This document shows positions 2,673-54,354 of a DNA stretch of 64,000 nucleotides, in pieces. How positions within the stretch are numbered: position 1 is the stretch's first letter; every line of letters begins with the position of its first letter. The position numbers and the translations under genes were made by a program. The notes beneath the pieces are model-generated. The model did not search any database and was not told the DNA's origin. It saw only the letters and a list, made by a program, of their open reading frames with translations. The DNA comes from Bacteroidales bacterium (GTDB lineage Bacteria > Bacteroidota > Bacteroidia > Bacteroidales > UBA932). The DNA lies in contig JAFRUH010000031.1 of assembly GCA_017438975.1 (NCBI GenBank), forward strand, positions 1 through 64,000, read 5' to 3'.

Positions 2673-2718
2673 TCAAGCGGAGTGAGGGGAAACCCTTACA
2701 ACAATAAGGAACGGAATT

Positions 2719-14733: not shown

Positions 14734-14850
14734 TTCCGGAGGAGGGTGTCCCTCCTGAGACCGCCGCTTAGCGGCCCCTCCCCAAGGGGCCCCTCCCTCT
14801 TATAATGCCGAGGGTGGCATAGGTTTCAGGGGGAACACCCTCCTTCGGAA
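14734..14850. repeat. Palindromic cloverleaf-like element, copy A (intergenic)
   Basis: A 117-bp element with about 25-bp imperfect terminal inverted repeats (14734-14758 and 14826-14850). Internal hairpins are GCCGC-TTA-GCGGC (14763-14775), CCCC-AA-GGGG (around 14779-14792) and the pair CCCTC...GAGGG (around 14795-14814). Its reverse complement aligns along nearly its whole length with the element at 53251-53363, sharing the exact 16-mer TAAGAGGGAGGGGCCC. It fills the gap between the convergent BaiN-like and DUF4861 genes, where it may also terminate both transcripts. Confidence 0.85.
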
Positions 14851-31471: not shown

Positions 31472-34400
31472 ATGAACAGAATCCATAAATCCCTCCTTTG
31501 CATCCTGGGTATCGGAGCCATTCTTTCCGCCTGCCAGACGCCGGAAGAGCTGATCGAGGAAATCGACTACTCCCGCGTCCTGACTCCGCTGAAATTCGAT
31601 GCCGAGGTGGTTGCCTCGACCGGTACCGACGTCGTACTGACCTGGCAGAAAATCAAGAACGCCGAAGGGTACGAGCTCGAAATCTACGAGCAGACCGGGG
31701 ATTCCAAGGTGGTCTCTACGGAGAATACCGGAACCAAGGTCGGACAAACCTATATCCTGGGCACTGACGAAATCCCCTTCACCGTCTACGGTCTCGAAGT
31801 GGACAAGTCTTTCTACGCCCGTGTCCGCGGAACGAATCCGCAGCTGAACCCCTCCAACTGGGCCTATCTGGAGACCACTTTCTCCACCTCCGCGGTCCGT
31901 GCTTCCCTGAACCCGTATGTGGTTTCCCGTACTGAGAATTCCGTCACGATCGCCTGGGACAAGGCGTCGGACAAGCAGGACCTGACTTCCCTCCAGGTCG
32001 AGACCGTCATCGGTGACGGCTCTTCCGTGAAGTCACCCGTCACGGCCGAGGAAATCGCAGCCGCTTCCAAGACGGTGACCGGACTGGATCCCGCCCGTGA
32101 ATACCGTTTCACCCTCCTGTTCGGAAAGGCCGGAAAACGCGGTTCCGTAACCGCCTTCACCCGTCCTTCCCTCCAGGGCGTGAACAAGGTCTATACAGCC
32201 GGCGAAATCTATCAGGCCATCAATGAGCAGCCCGGCGAGATCAAGCTCCTCGTCGAATATTCGGATGCCGGCATCGATATGATGGACGCCTATCCGGATC
32301 CCGCCAAGAAACTTGTGACCGTGACCGGCGACGTGTACCTTTACGGAAACGCGACGGAAGCGGGCAAGAAGCCGGCCATATCGACCCTGGTCTTCAACCT
32401 CGCCGCCGGTTCCAAGGTCCTCCATCTGGAAGACCTCGTCTTCGACGGGAACGGGACCGGAGCCCTGACGGAGAACCTGGGCGCCGATATGAGCGCCGTC
32501 GAATATGTCAATTCCGAAATCACCGGCTATGCCAAGGCGATCTACTCGGTGGCCGGCTCCGCCGCGGGTGCCAATGTCGCCTCCTTCCTCGTCGACGGCT
32601 GCTATGTCCATGACATCAATGCGGCCGGTACCGAAGGCGGAGACTTCATCGATGTCCGTAACGGTGTGAACGGCAGCTTCGTCGTCCGCAATTCCACCTT
32701 CTACGCCTGCGCCCGTACCTTCTTCAGGATCTCCGACAGCGCCAAGGCAGAAAGCGTCCTGGCCGAGAACTGTACCTTCAACCTCGTTACCGCTACGAAC
32801 GGTTCCTCCAACAACGCCGGTATCTTCGCCGTCCGCGCCGTAACCGGAACCAAGAGCCTGAAAGCCGTCAAGAACGTCTTCCTGAACGAGATCAGCGAAG
32901 GTGAGGACCAGTCCGATCCTGCCAAGTGCTTCGTGCGCCTGAACCGGAATTCCACCGATTCCTACCGGGTCGTGAGCACGGGGAACGTCTATTACAACCT
33001 CGGCGCCGCCTTCTTCGTCTCCAACGCAGTCGCGGCGGAGACCGATACCCAGGGCGACAAGACCTTCGAGGAAATCTCCATGACCGAGGCGACCGTCCTG
33101 ACTGCGGATCCCTGCGTCAACTCTATCGCCGGCAAGATGTACCTCGCCGGTACAGCCGGAGAGCAGATCAGGTCCCTCAAGGCCGGCGATCCCCGCTGGT
33201 GGGATGCCGTCCAGCCGGTCATCATCCGTGAAAAGGAACTGAAAGCCGCTCCCGACGAGTATACCTGGGATTTCACGGAGAAGACCATCTATGACACGGA
33301 AGAACTGACCGCCACGACGATCATCGGCAATGCCCGGATCTATGCTACCTCGACCGTTCCGGCCCAGGTCGTCATGTCTAAGGGCGTCGACTTCACGACG
33401 ACGGCTTCCGTCAGTCCCGCAGGCGTTCCGACTTATTCCGCCGTCGAGGTCCTTACCAACGGTTACGGATCGGTAAAGGTCACCGCGACGAGCGATGACG
33501 GTCTCGGAACCCTCCAGGTGCTTGTGGGCGAAGACCGTTATCCGGTTCTCGCCGACGGGAAAGAGCATACGGTCGTCCTCGGCGACCTGACCGGCGACAA
33601 CAGCATCTTTGTGCTTGCGAATTCCGCCGTGACCCTGAAGAAGATCGTATGGACCAAGAACCTCACTCCTGACGAAACCCTGATCGAACTCGCTTCACCG
33701 AAGCTGACGGTCGCTCCCGCCAAACTCGACCAGGGTACCGCGGAGGCCGTCGTCGTCTCCTGGCCCGCCGTCGAGAACGCCGCCGACTATGTCGTAGTCT
33801 TCAGGGGTGCCGAGACGATGCTGTCCGAGACGTCCTTCACGATCCCGGCCGAAGAGGTCTCCGCCCTCCCTGTCGGAGAATATACCGTTACGGTCAAGGC
33901 CCGCCCTGTCGGAACTTCTTCCAAGTATGCCGCATCCGAGCCTGCCGAGGCAACCTTCAAGGTCAACAAGGTCCAGCCGTCCGGCGGAGAGGTTACCCTC
34001 ACATGGGACTTCTCGGCTCCGGAATGGGTCGCCCAGTTCGAAAGCCACTTTGCGGCGATCAATGCGAACCAGAGCGACATCGACTTCACCTTCAACGGTC
34101 TCCGCGTCAACGGCGGCGGTGCTTCGATGAAGTACAACAAGGCCGAAGAGATCTACTTCATCCAGCCCGGAGGCAAGGGAAGCGCGACGCAGCGCCAGTT
34201 CCAGTTTACGGCTCCCGCAGCCGGTACGCTGACGGTCTGGGCATCCAACACGGGTGACAACGAGGATCTGACCCGTATGGTCACGGTCAACCAGGGCGGT
34301 GTCGAAAAGTCACTGCCCGGCGGAACGAAGACCAGCGATCCGCAGACGGTCGTCTCCTTCGACATCGAGGCCGGCGACGTCCTCGTCTATCCGACCGGAA

Positions 34401-35371
34401 ACGGCCTCCGCTTCTACAAGCTGGAGTTCACCTACAAAGGCGGCGGAGCCCCTGCGGTCGAGTATGACTGGGATTTCTCCACTCCGGAATGGATCGGCCA
34501 GTTCGAGAGCCATTTCACTGCGATCAATACGAACCAGAGCGATATCGACTTTACGTACGAGGGTCTCCGCGTCAACGGCGGCGGCGCTTCGATGAAGTAC
34601 AACAAGGCCGGCGACATCTGCTTCATCCAGCCCGGCGGCAAGGGAAGCGCGACACAGCGCCAGTTCCAGTTCACGGCTCCTTCGGCCGGAACGCTGACCG
34701 TCTATGTCTCCAACACGGGGGACAACGAGGACCTGACCCGGATGGTCGCCGTCAGTCAGGACGGCAAGGAACAGTCCCAGCCAGGCGGCACAAAGACCAG
34801 CGATCCGCAGACGGTCGTTTCCTTCGAGATCGAGGCCGGTGACGTCCTGATCTATCCGATCGGGAATTCCCTCCGCTTCTACCGCATTCATTTCCAGGGT
34901 GCCGGCGGAGCTCCCGCCAAGGTCGAAAAGGTCTGGAACTTCACGTCTCCGGAATGGGTCGCCCAGTTTGAAAGCCACTTCAGTGCGATCAATGCGAACC
35001 AGAACGACATCGACTTTACCTTCGATGACCTGAGGGTCAACGGAGGCGGCGCTTCGATGAAATACAACAAGGCCGGGGACATCTATTTCATCCAACCCGG
35101 CGGAAAGGGCAGCGATACCCAGCGCCAGTTCGCCTATACCGCACCGGCTGCCGGAACGCTGACCGTCTATGTTTCCAACACGGGAGACAACGAAGACATG
35201 ACGCGTATGGTTACGGTCAAGCAGGACGGCAAGGAACAGTCCCAGCCCGGCGGCACCAAGACCAGTGCGCCCCAGACAATCGTTACCTTCGAGGTGGAGG
35301 CCGGAGATCTCCTGATCTATCCGACCGGGAATTCCCTCCGTTTCTATGCGATTGAATACCGTTCCAATTGA
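31472..35371 (+). CDS. Giant surface glycan-binding lipoprotein with three tandem C-terminal modules
   Basis: A 1299-residue lipoprotein (lipobox AILSAC). Order of parts: FN3-like modules (about 25-235); a beta-helix region resembling DUF4957/DUF5123 (about 240-600, ending KAGDPRWWDAVQP); one divergent beta-sandwich module (starting YTWDFTEKTIYD); a further FN3-like module (around SPKLTVAPAKLDQG); then three near-identical 155-residue modules. Each module begins W-D/N-F-x-x-PEW, contains VNGGGASMKYNKA and IQPGGKG, and ends LRFYxIxF. Such proteins sit beside SusD in pectin loci and bind glycan; catalytic residues are not recognised. A long frame from 31433 overlaps susD and is replaced by ATG 31472. 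Confidence 0.85.
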   Translation: MNRIHKSLLCILGIGAILSACQTPEELIEEIDYSRVLTPLKFDAEVVASTGTDVVLTWQKIKNAEGYELEIYEQTGDSKVVSTENTGTKVGQTYILGTDEIPFTVYGLEVDKSFYARVRGTNPQLNPSNWAYLETTFSTSAVRASLNPYVVSRTENSVTIAWDKASDKQDLTSLQVETVIGDGSSVKSPVTAEEIAAASKTVTGLDPAREYRFTLLFGKAGKRGSVTAFTRPSLQGVNKVYTAGEIYQAINEQPGEIKLLVEYSDAGIDMMDAYPDPAKKLVTVTGDVYLYGNATEAGKKPAISTLVFNLAAGSKVLHLEDLVFDGNGTGALTENLGADMSAVEYVNSEITGYAKAIYSVAGSAAGANVASFLVDGCYVHDINAAGTEGGDFIDVRNGVNGSFVVRNSTFYACARTFFRISDSAKAESVLAENCTFNLVTATNGSSNNAGIFAVRAVTGTKSLKAVKNVFLNEISEGEDQSDPAKCFVRLNRNSTDSYRVVSTGNVYYNLGAAFFVSNAVAAETDTQGDKTFEEISMTEATVLTADPCVNSIAGKMYLAGTAGEQIRSLKAGDPRWWDAVQPVIIREKELKAAPDEYTWDFTEKTIYDTEELTATTIIGNARIYATSTVPAQVVMSKGVDFTTTASVSPAGVPTYSAVEVLTNGYGSVKVTATSDDGLGTLQVLVGEDRYPVLADGKEHTVVLGDLTGDNSIFVLANSAVTLKKIVWTKNLTPDETLIELASPKLTVAPAKLDQGTAEAVVVSWPAVENAADYVVVFRGAETMLSETSFTIPAEEVSALPVGEYTVTVKARPVGTSSKYAASEPAEATFKVNKVQPSGGEVTLTWDFSAPEWVAQFESHFAAINANQSDIDFTFNGLRVNGGGASMKYNKAEEIYFIQPGGKGSATQRQFQFTAPAAGTLTVWASNTGDNEDLTRMVTVNQGGVEKSLPGGTKTSDPQTVVSFDIEAGDVLVYPTGNGLRFYKLEFTYKGGGAPAVEYDWDFSTPEWIGQFESHFTAINTNQSDIDFTYEGLRVNGGGASMKYNKAGDICFIQPGGKGSATQRQFQFTAPSAGTLTVYVSNTGDNEDLTRMVAVSQDGKEQSQPGGTKTSDPQTVVSFEIEAGDVLIYPIGNSLRFYRIHFQGAGGAPAKVEKVWNFTSPEWVAQFESHFSAINANQNDIDFTFDDLRVNGGGASMKYNKAGDIYFIQPGGKGSDTQRQFAYTAPAAGTLTVYVSNTGDNEDMTRMVTVKQDGKEQSQPGGTKTSAPQTIVTFEVEAGDLLIYPTGNSLRFYAIEYRSN
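34001..35368 (+). repeat. Three tandem 465-bp repeats inside the surface lipoprotein gene
   Basis: The conserved Trp codons that open each unit lie at 34004, 34469 and 34934, an exact 465-bp (155-codon) period. DNA blocks such as GTCAACGGCGGCGG followed by GCTTCGATGAA recur almost unchanged, indicating recent duplication and probable copy-number variation between strains. Confidence 0.9.
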
Positions 35372-53001: not shown

Positions 53002-54354
53002 ATGGGGACATTCGATGATTTCATTCTCTCCCATGAAGGGGATGATCCGGCCCGTCTGCTGCTTTCGCGCGGACGGTTCCCCGACGTGGATATGGACCTG
53101 GCGGTCACGACGATCGAGGCGCGGCGGAAGCTCCGGACCAAGGTTCCGGAGTGGTATGCCGTCCCTTCGCTGCGTTATCCGAAGGTGCTTCCGGCGGAGC
53201 AGTGTTCCTCCTCGGAGACCGCCCGATATAAAGCCCGGCTCGCCGCCCGGTTTTGGGAGGGTGTTCCCTCCGGAACCCATGGCCACCCTCGGCCGTGTAA
53301 GAGGGAGGGGCCCTTCGGGAGGGGTCGCGAAGCGACGGTTCACGAGGGAACACCCTCCCAAAACGAATGGGAAGGTGAGCCGGGCGCTCGGATTGCAGAC
53401 CTGACGGGAGGACTCGGGGTCGACAGCCAGGCTTTCTCGGAAGTGTTCGGGAAGGTGCTTTACAACGAGATGGACCCGACTCTCGCAAAAGCGGCGGAGT
53501 ATAATTTCAAGGCACTAGGAATCAATAACATAGAAGTCCTGAATTACTGCCTTTCTTCAGCTGGCGGAGAGGGGGTCTCCGTCGGAGAAATCCTCGGCGG
53601 TTTCTCTCCGGATGTCCTCTATCTCGACCCTGCCAGAAGGGCCTCGGACGGAAGGAAAGTATTCCTCATCGAAGACTGCCGGCCGGATGTCCTCGGCCTC
53701 CTTCCCGATCTTTTCGCAGCCTGCCGGTTCATCCTGTTGAAACTCTCCCCGATGGCGGATATCTCGATGGCTGCGGAGCGTCTCTCGCACGTGCGGGAGG
53801 TCCATGCCGTCGCTTCAGGCGGGGAATGCAAGGAACTGCTCTTCGTGCTGGACCGGGACTGGGAAGGGGAGTATGCCATCATCGCGGCGGAGTCAGGGGC
53901 GACTTTCCGTTTCCTGCCCTCCGGGGAGAAGGGCGCCGCCGCCCGCCTGGCCGATCATCCCGAGGTGCTTGGGAGCTGCCGCTATCTTTATGAACCCGGC
54001 AAGGCGCTCCTCAAGTCCGGAGCCTTCCGTCTCCTATCGGAACGCTTCGGAATGATCAAAGCAGGTAATCACACGCATCTCTATCTGACTGAGGAAGTTC
54101 CGGAGGAACTGAAACCGCTCGGAAAGACCTTCGGAATCCTGGAGGTCCAGCCTTTGGCCAGCCACATGCTGAAGACGGTCGGGAAGCGATGGCCCCGTGC
54201 CGAAGTCACGGCCAGGAACGTTCCGCTCACCTCCGAAGTGCTTCGTAGAAAGATGGGTTGCGCGTCCGGCGGTGACATCCATATCTTCGGCGTCCGGTTT
54301 GACTTCCGGTCCGGATCCTCAGAGAATAAACTGCTGATTACCAAAGTGTTGTAG
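53002..54354 (+). CDS. THUMP-like SAM-dependent methyltransferase with an in-frame palindromic insertion
   Basis: A 450-residue class I methyltransferase of the Bacteroidota THUMP-like group. The N-terminal helical part has LPAEQCSSSETARYKARLA. The SAM-binding core begins IADLTGGLGVDSQAFSE and contains LYLDPARRASDGRKVF, which fits an RNA- or DNA-type methyltransferase motif IV. The C-terminal domain runs from FGILEVQPLASHMLKTVGKR to the end. Substrate unknown. Residues 84-121 (FWEGV to PSQN), rich in Gly, Arg and Pro, are encoded by palindromic element copy B. Removing them leaves a linker of normal size. Whether the enzyme still works is untested. Confidence 0.85.
   Translation: MGTFDDFILSHEGDDPARLLLSRGRFPDVDMDLAVTTIEARRKLRTKVPEWYAVPSLRYPKVLPAEQCSSSETARYKARLAARFWEGVPSGTHGHPRPCKREGPFGRGREATVHEGTPSQNEWEGEPGARIADLTGGLGVDSQAFSEVFGKVLYNEMDPTLAKAAEYNFKALGINNIEVLNYCLSSAGGEGVSVGEILGGFSPDVLYLDPARRASDGRKVFLIEDCRPDVLGLLPDLFAACRFILLKLSPMADISMAAERLSHVREVHAVASGGECKELLFVLDRDWEGEYAIIAAESGATFRFLPSGEKGAAARLADHPEVLGSCRYLYEPGKALLKSGAFRLLSERFGMIKAGNHTHLYLTEEVPEELKPLGKTFGILEVQPLASHMLKTVGKRWPRAEVTARNVPLTSEVLRRKMGCASGGDIHIFGVRFDFRSGSSENKLLITKVL
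53251..53363. repeat. Palindromic cloverleaf-like element, copy B (inside a coding gene)
   Basis: A 113-bp element with perfect 20-bp terminal inverted repeats (53251-53270 and 53344-53363). It has three internal hairpins: CCCTC/GAGGG (53286-53305), CCC-TTC-GGG (53311-53319) and GTCGC-GAA-GCGAC (53324-53336). It aligns with the reverse complement of 14734-14850. The hairpin arms read GTCGC/GCGAC here and GCCGC/GCGGC there, a compensatory pair change. With one extra base (114 nt, 38 codons) the host frame stays open. Confidence 0.88.

Follow-up and report, generated by a model that had tools for sequence, protein, structure and literature searches.

A family of RPE-like palindromic elements, probably mobile, in gut Bacteroidales

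Background

Rickettsia palindromic elements (RPE) are palindromes of 100-150 bp, present in several copies per genome, many of which lie in-frame within functionally unrelated genes, as described in the cited parts of two accounts (PMC10969869, PMC3767692), and the TruB gene is a target both of RPE in Rickettsia and, in a further account cited in part, of REPs elsewhere (PMC3733652). RPE would appear to be the nearest known kind to the elements described here from Bacteroidales, which are also palindromic repeats, about 100-180 bp long and dispersed in the genome, with copies in ORFs that keep the reading frame and with a TruB gene again carrying a copy. The likeness is one of description. The Bacteroidales elements occur in a different phylum and have a three-hairpin core with a possible pseudoknot, arms specific to each copy, and cores that are found reversed in place.

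REPs, in the passages cited, are 20-40 bp long with a fixed tag, and Y1 transposases have been proposed to act on the folded single strand; REPs also often lie between convergent genes, with some copies in ORFs, as do the elements described here (PMC3733652, PMC8266576). An earlier sequence-only reading of this DNA had suggested a MITE- or REP-like family, and assignment to REPs does not hold as the elements are longer and, in alignments A2 and A3, neither GTAG nor CGTC is present as an invariant tag. Hairpin H1 occurs in both GTC and GCC types, and CGTC is present only in the GTC type.

Template switching has been invoked for RNA genes on the basis of their reconstructed histories, as a single process that can leave both matched changes in a stem and inversion of its loop; the two marks together are termed extremely rare among the RNA genes covered in the part of that work cited here (PMC8794818). 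In contrast to these template-switch hairpins in RNA genes, reversed cores with matched arms recur here within one repeat family. The double-hairpin and repetitive hairpin elements of mitochondria, mostly intergenic, in some cases genic and suggested to be mobile in the sections cited (PMC2800124, PMC5910586), are also similar by description, as repetitive hairpins, but belong to organelles. The origin and upkeep of perfect long palindromes is an open question for which the family provides a natural test: there are at most tens of palindromes per genome and both marks of template switching are present, so that rate and mechanism are measurable. In-frame palindromic insertion into conserved genes, known from Rickettsia, also occurs in gut Bacteroidales.

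Structure of the element

The window, namely the whole stretch of 64,000 nucleotides that was analysed, contains two copies, A and B, each with the outer inverted repeat and three hairpins reported in the sequence-only reading (Table 1). Copy B had been placed, in the opposite orientation to copy A, at 53251-53363 and is one base longer at each end. Pairing is, as had been noticed, kept despite sequence change, with GCCGC/GCGGC in H1 of copy A replaced by GTCGC/GCGAC in copy B, and CCCC/GGGG in H2 by CCC/GGG. For both copies, on both strands, the fold z is -6.0 to -7.2, and none of 200 shuffles was as good in any case. A plus-strand open frame stops 10 nt before copy A, and a minus-strand open frame stops 8 nt after it. 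The window also contains, at 33974-35203, three 300-nt direct repeats with a period of 465 bp inside a long ORF.

Table 1. Coordinates of the palindromic elements and associated features in the window
Feature	Position	Strand	Basis
Copy A, whole element, 117 bp	14734..14850	+	sequence, arm pairing, covariance model
Copy A left arm, 29 nt, pairs with 14822-14850	14734..14762	+	arm pairing
Copy A hairpin H1, GCCGC-TTA-GCGGC	14763..14775	+	sequence; helix 1 of alignment test
Copy A hairpin H2, CCCC-AA-GGGG	14780..14789	+	sequence; helix 2 of alignment test
Copy A CCCTC, proposed pseudoknot partner of GAGGG 14810-14814	14795..14799	+	sequence
Copy A hairpin H3, loop GAGGGT	14803..14821	+	sequence; helix 3 of alignment test
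Copy A right arm	14822..14850	+	arm pairing
Copy B, whole element, 115 bp, in-frame within ORF 53002-54354	53250..53364	-	
Copy B arm, pairs with 53337-53364	53250..53277	-	arm pairing
Copy B hairpin H3	53278..53297	-	sequence
Copy B GAGGG, proposed pseudoknot partner of CCCTC 53286-53290	53301..53305	+	sequence
Copy B hairpin H2	53311..53319	-	sequence
Copy B hairpin H1, GTCGC-TTC-GCGAC	53324..53336	-	sequence
Copy B arm	53337..53364	-	arm pairing
Host gene of copy B, 450 aa with insert	53002..54354	+	Pfam PG_1098 ferredoxin-like and THUMP-like domains
One arm only (GTAAGGGTTTCCCCTC on - strand); complete copy L169 at this site in sister genome G125	2674..2708	.	

Throughout the family, elements of about 100-180 bp consist of a conserved three-hairpin core closed by a long stem, in the order arm, H1, CCCTCCC, H2, CCCTCCCTCTTA, H3, arm on the strand on which copy A is plus. 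H1 and H2 vary in length and sequence with matched pairs, and the outer pairs of H3 also co-vary. The structure was evaluated by five measures in 59 aligned copies, drawn from 101 selected by a pattern in which part of the core and the terminal pairs of H1 and H2 were fixed, so that these are invariant by construction; one picked copy (L020) was excluded by hand. Paired cells amount to 96.7%, versus 82.2% in shuffles (reached by 0 of 500), the covariation score is 0.278 versus 0.071 (0 of 500; at most 0.079 when slid), and 117 cells are changed on both sides, versus a shuffled mean of 36.7. The two remaining measures do not exceed shuffles, with 8 pairs changed on both sides versus 7.2 (reached by 185 of 500) and 18 further pair types versus 20.7 (483 of 500). 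The earlier reading took such changes as an argument for selection on structure, rather than chance, but covariation alone is not proof of selection because template switching can yield matched changes in one step, and reversed cores, the other mark of this process, are present in the family.

The GAGGG in the loop of H3 is able to pair with the upstream CCCTC, consistent with a possible pseudoknot in the core, and in one distant copy (L199) both sides are altered together, to CCCGT/ACGGG. On the bottom strand, 95 of the 136 copies that were parsed have c(GNA)g as the loop of H1, with all four bases found at N. In some copies (L005, L009, L172, L180), H2 contains an extra hairpin of ~40 nt that resembles a nested element.

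Family size and range

The 2.8 Mb genome of the window (G000) has 27 exact matches to a 16-base core pattern, versus none to the reversed control, and 32 matches to covariance model R1. Across the genus, the model identified the family in 83 of 101 genomes, some of them incomplete, at E 1e-4 or better, with 1-39 matches per positive genome and none in the remaining 18. Among 247 genomes sampled across Bacteroidales, weaker matches are present in four others, one from the same family but a different genus and three from other families. Strict filters were used in both the genus- and order-level searches, and the order-level search recovered only 17 of the copies in the genome of the window. The exact core pattern is present in 14 of 37 genus genomes and in 0 of 24 genomes from other families of the order, and the 153 elements selected by it are, by construction, invariant at the positions that it fixes. 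Among the matches listed (80 of 117 stretches), all named records that carry the core are labelled Bacteroidales or Bacteroidia, and many have ruminant sources in their titles.

The earlier proposal, which was to be abandoned if no further copies existed or if a model search did no better than a control, is borne out to the extent that the family extends well beyond copies A and B and is dispersed, apparently non-autonomous and keeps its pairing. The exact core pattern had 0 matches in viral contigs, and a blastn search with copy A found none in phage and plasmid records. There were 0 Rfam matches in the window at the gathering threshold; in ten loci there were only three, far below the cut-offs, two of which overlap elements, namely MIR820 (E 0.05, 33 of 196 bits) and MIMT1_1 (E 6.7). 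Among the matches listed from open-licence PubMed Central, no description of this palindromic family was found. Copies A and B are members of a small palindromic family scattered through gut Bacteroidales that is probably mobile.

Arms, flanks and shared sites

The arms pair within a copy but seldom between copies. In 148 of the 153 elements selected by the core pattern, own-arm pairing has a median of 26 bp, reaches at least 20 bp in 122 and is without mismatch in 64, whereas the left arm of one copy paired with the right arm of another gives a median of 1 bp, with only 12 of 2937 combinations reaching 20 bp. The arms change together between copies, as exemplified by L039 and L058. In 120 copies, the inner arm bases, GAAACC/GGTTTC, are conserved, and outside of these there is a weak purine-then-pyrimidine consensus. 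The family is like MITEs in size, in being non-autonomous and in having inverted repeats at its ends, but it is not a classical MITE as the terminal arms share little sequence between copies, and comparison of occupied with empty sites, and of flank repeats, reveals no clear target duplication. A search of the flanks of 170 copies, in three windows, found 1, 14 and 11 direct repeats of at least 6 (2.5, 6.9 and 9.5 expected) and 1, 6 and 4 of at least 7 (1.0, 2.0 and 2.3 expected), a slight excess in one of the three window sizes, and a single site (L118/L083) resembles a duplication.

The mismatches that remain in the arms differ between the strands. With related copies counted as independent, the 3312 pairs have 58 G.T versus 31 A.C and 45 purine-purine versus 7 pyrimidine-pyrimidine mismatches on the bottom strand. 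This asymmetry comes partly from recurrent mismatches near the core; from arm position 10 outward the counts are 49 versus 16, and 16 versus 3, respectively. Such strand asymmetry suggests selection on a single-stranded fold and, together with the GNA loops, points, not decisively, to the fold of the bottom single strand, as DNA more than RNA. A hairpin of at least 4 bp within a single arm is present in 48 of 111 cases, versus 33% in shuffles, a weak effect. Local GC skew gives no clear strand preference, at 46 of 106 loci (p 0.21) and, where the skew exceeds 0.03, 15 of 46 (p 0.026). If a gap of up to three bases is allowed, pairing extends outward by at least 5 bp in 26 of 170 copies, versus 2.1% with flanks swapped, and in 10 of these 26 it continues past one extra base on the left. 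The possibility that the arms are an inverted copy of the target was considered but is not favoured; it fits the outermost bases in part, but clean empty sites hold no arm.

Sister genome G125 has 29 element copies at no more than one mismatch. For 17 of the 27 copies in the genome of the window there is a counterpart in G125 with both flanks, 10 in the same and 7 in the opposite orientation. The 13 pairs with measurable arms have median identities of 0.59 in the arms and 0.93 in the core, with flanks at 84%; random paralogues have 0.52 (95th percentile 0.67) and 0.77, respectively. In 7 of these 13 pairs, arm identity is below the 95th percentile of random paralogues, which may reflect fast change or independent insertion into the same gap. 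In the complete set of loci there are 65 pairs in which both flanks match and the arms are of sufficient length for comparison, and 14 of these have arm identity of at least 0.70. Two were dropped as apparent double entries of the sister record, and in the other 12 core orientation agrees in 8 and is reversed in 4 (L028/L154, L091/L138, L007/L186 and L022/L188, at arm identities of 0.81-0.87). Because one arm is the mirror of the other, a flipped core and a flipped whole element are indistinguishable.

Both core and arms are absent at sites L118 versus L083, L057 versus L064 and L189 versus L204, the last being in the genome of the window. The junction alignment is not clean at the candidate empty sites L083/L118, L085, L087, L041, L049, L101 and L073. 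In G125, the site of L010 (L201) has arms closed by a 4-nt loop, GCAC. Separately, L013, in which the L087 site is empty, has a short palindrome, TTCCCGGCCGGAA, at the point at which the arms of the occupied site end TTCCGG/CCGGAA. The single arm at 2674-2708 is likely a deletion relic, read in this way because the family arm motif is present.

Candidate transposases

In 61 genomes, element number correlates with Y1_Tnp number (Spearman 0.50, p 4e-5, shared ancestry not removed), versus rho 0.06 for RVT_1, -0.06 for DDE_Tnp_1 and 0.05 for completeness. In the 26 genomes that are at least 90% complete, with shared ancestry again not removed, the values are 0.55 for Y1_Tnp, -0.04 for RVT_1 and -0.45 for DDE_Tnp_1. 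A Y1_Tnp match is present in 26 of the 27 genomes with at least 10 elements; the exception, G014, has 14 elements and is 70% complete. This correlation in copy number is the one observation to suggest that Y1 (HUH) transposases may move the element in trans. The genome of the window has Y1_Tnp matches on contigs C3, C7 and C28, none on C30, and no DDE_Tnp_1 match, in agreement, for the two families scanned, with the earlier remark that no transposase is nearby.

A REP-like arrangement with a TnpA-REP gene, as had been envisaged, was not found. The core motif is absent from 10 of 11 Y1_Tnp neighbourhoods and no copy flanks a Y1_Tnp gene as in a REPtron; in the eleventh, trmB contains a copy that has a long H2, and the Y1_Tnp gene is some 0.3 kb away. 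This copy, at about 596-774 of L165, is in-frame in a trmB-like ORF (46-984), and trmB also hosts copies in the group of L071, L098, L107, L120 and L137. The Y1_Tnp gene itself (L165 1074-2039, minus strand, contig C28) has a different hairpin, CCTCTGGTTAAAACTCACCAGAGG, on both sides (985-1030 and 2080-2145), likely its cognate pair and unrelated to the palindromic element. A search of the genome of the window for a left half-core that lacks the right half found no autonomous version; 20 of 21 matches were copies already known and the other was the long-H2 copy in trmB.

Origin and maintenance of the palindromes

Dispersal, polymorphism and in-frame tolerance make a mobile, RPE-like family a well supported reading of these sequences. 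The explanation that we consider probable, with some reserve, is a non-autonomous palindromic mobile element of Bacteroidales shaped by template switching and by selection on a single-strand fold and, more weakly, moved by Y1 transposases. A polymerase would switch template between the arms and copy one arm onto the other, so that the arms stay matched, and such a switch would sometimes reverse the core between them; template switching is preferred because one described process covers both matched arms and reversed cores. Added selection would act on the single-stranded fold of the bottom strand, that which carries GGGAGGGG and is opposite to the plus strand of copy A. Host Y1 transposases (HUH, IS200/REP-type) might, with less confidence, move the folded single strand in trans, and insertions would persist where they are least harmful, next to the stops of convergent genes or, in-frame, in loops that tolerate them. 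A bolder version, possible but less likely than not, is that the ends are defined by shape rather than sequence, with the mover recognising, as a folded single strand, the core together with whatever stem of ~26 bp closes it; the arms could then have any sequence, as template switching, during insertion or afterwards, would rewrite one to mirror the other. If so, each insertion or lineage would gain its own terminal repeats, and core flipping would be a by-product.

An element useful to the host, lying between convergent genes where it terminates transcription in both directions or stabilises mRNA 3' ends, and selected as RNA, would account for the strong folds, the G.T (G.U) bias on one strand and the 10 of 27 copies in the genome of the window that have, on either side, a convergent frame of 150 codons or more with its stop no further than 40 nt away, counts that refer to open frames and not called genes. 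We think it unlikely given the in-frame copies within several genes in both orientations, the occurrence of both orientations at the same site and the lack of matches in 18 of the 101 genus genomes, some incomplete, when others have up to 39. The G.T bias, as strand-specific wobble, and the proposed pseudoknot would also fit a structured RNA, transcribed as the bottom strand and copied back by a reverse transcriptase in the manner of a bacterial SINE, but RVT_1 does not follow element number (rho 0.06) and is absent from 18 of the 27 genomes with at least 10 elements. Moreover, the listed H1 and H2 loops on the bottom strand include 128 GNA triloops versus 4 GNRA tetraloops. GNA triloops are better suited to DNA minihairpins, d(GNA) loops being stable, and a SINE is to our mind equally improbable.

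Arms that differ in every copy, around a core that lies either way round, could also result if the core alone were mobile and entered the loops of existing hairpins or palindromes, such as terminators, the arms then being old host palindromes. The arms with a 4-nt loop at the L010 site and the short palindrome in the empty counterpart of L087 are as expected from such entry. Both arms are, however, missing with the core at the three empty sites listed above, the hairpin at the L010 site retains the AACC/GGTT of the element and so resembles core loss, and the inner arms have a weak family consensus, leaving this idea with a low probability, similar to that of the two preceding ones. The differing core orientation at shared sites might, in addition, recall a phase-variable switch (inverton) flipped by a site-specific recombinase. 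Recombinase sites should be alike between copies, which the arms are not, and the many copies in ORFs or between convergent genes have no obvious target for promoter flipping; we regard an inverton as very unlikely indeed.

Insertions within genes

The product of the gene that hosts copy B is, we assume, probably a methyltransferase. At the loop that contains copy B, 29 of 30 homologous loci fetched were readable and five, including that in the window, carry the element in-frame, three in one orientation and two in the other. Between two fixed motifs there are 68-76 residues with the element versus 30-58 in 22 homologues without it; L212 and L226 carry other repeats in this loop, with 69 and 71 residues, respectively. 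The palindromic insert in L226, from another genome of the genus, is different, with an unrelated core, and is perhaps from a second family of the same type.

In-frame elements occur in conserved genes in both orientations. In the genome of the window, 3 of the 27 copies are in Pfam-supported frames, and Pfam-supported hosts include rsmH/mraW (L020) and a hisD-hisC junction (L021). The latter, on contig C23, has hisD and hisC domains in one open frame of 822 codons, with the element as the joint. The insert is inside the matched Pfam domain in what we take, from their domains, to be KsgA, TruA and a YgiQ-like protein, and beside or between the matched domain parts in those presumed to be TruB, TrmB, RibF and YggS-like, MiaB-like radical SAM, glycosyltransferase and HI0933-like proteins. 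About 30-60 residues are added in-frame to enzymes such as KsgA, TruA, TruB, TrmB and RibF. Separately, repeats of GTCATTCTGAGCG, of the CHSERSEES-peptide kind, are present in L030, L045, L056, L059, L106, L117 and L139, with a variant, GTCATTCTGAACG, in L044, and in L045 and L034 repeats of this type are located in the RibF loop near the element.
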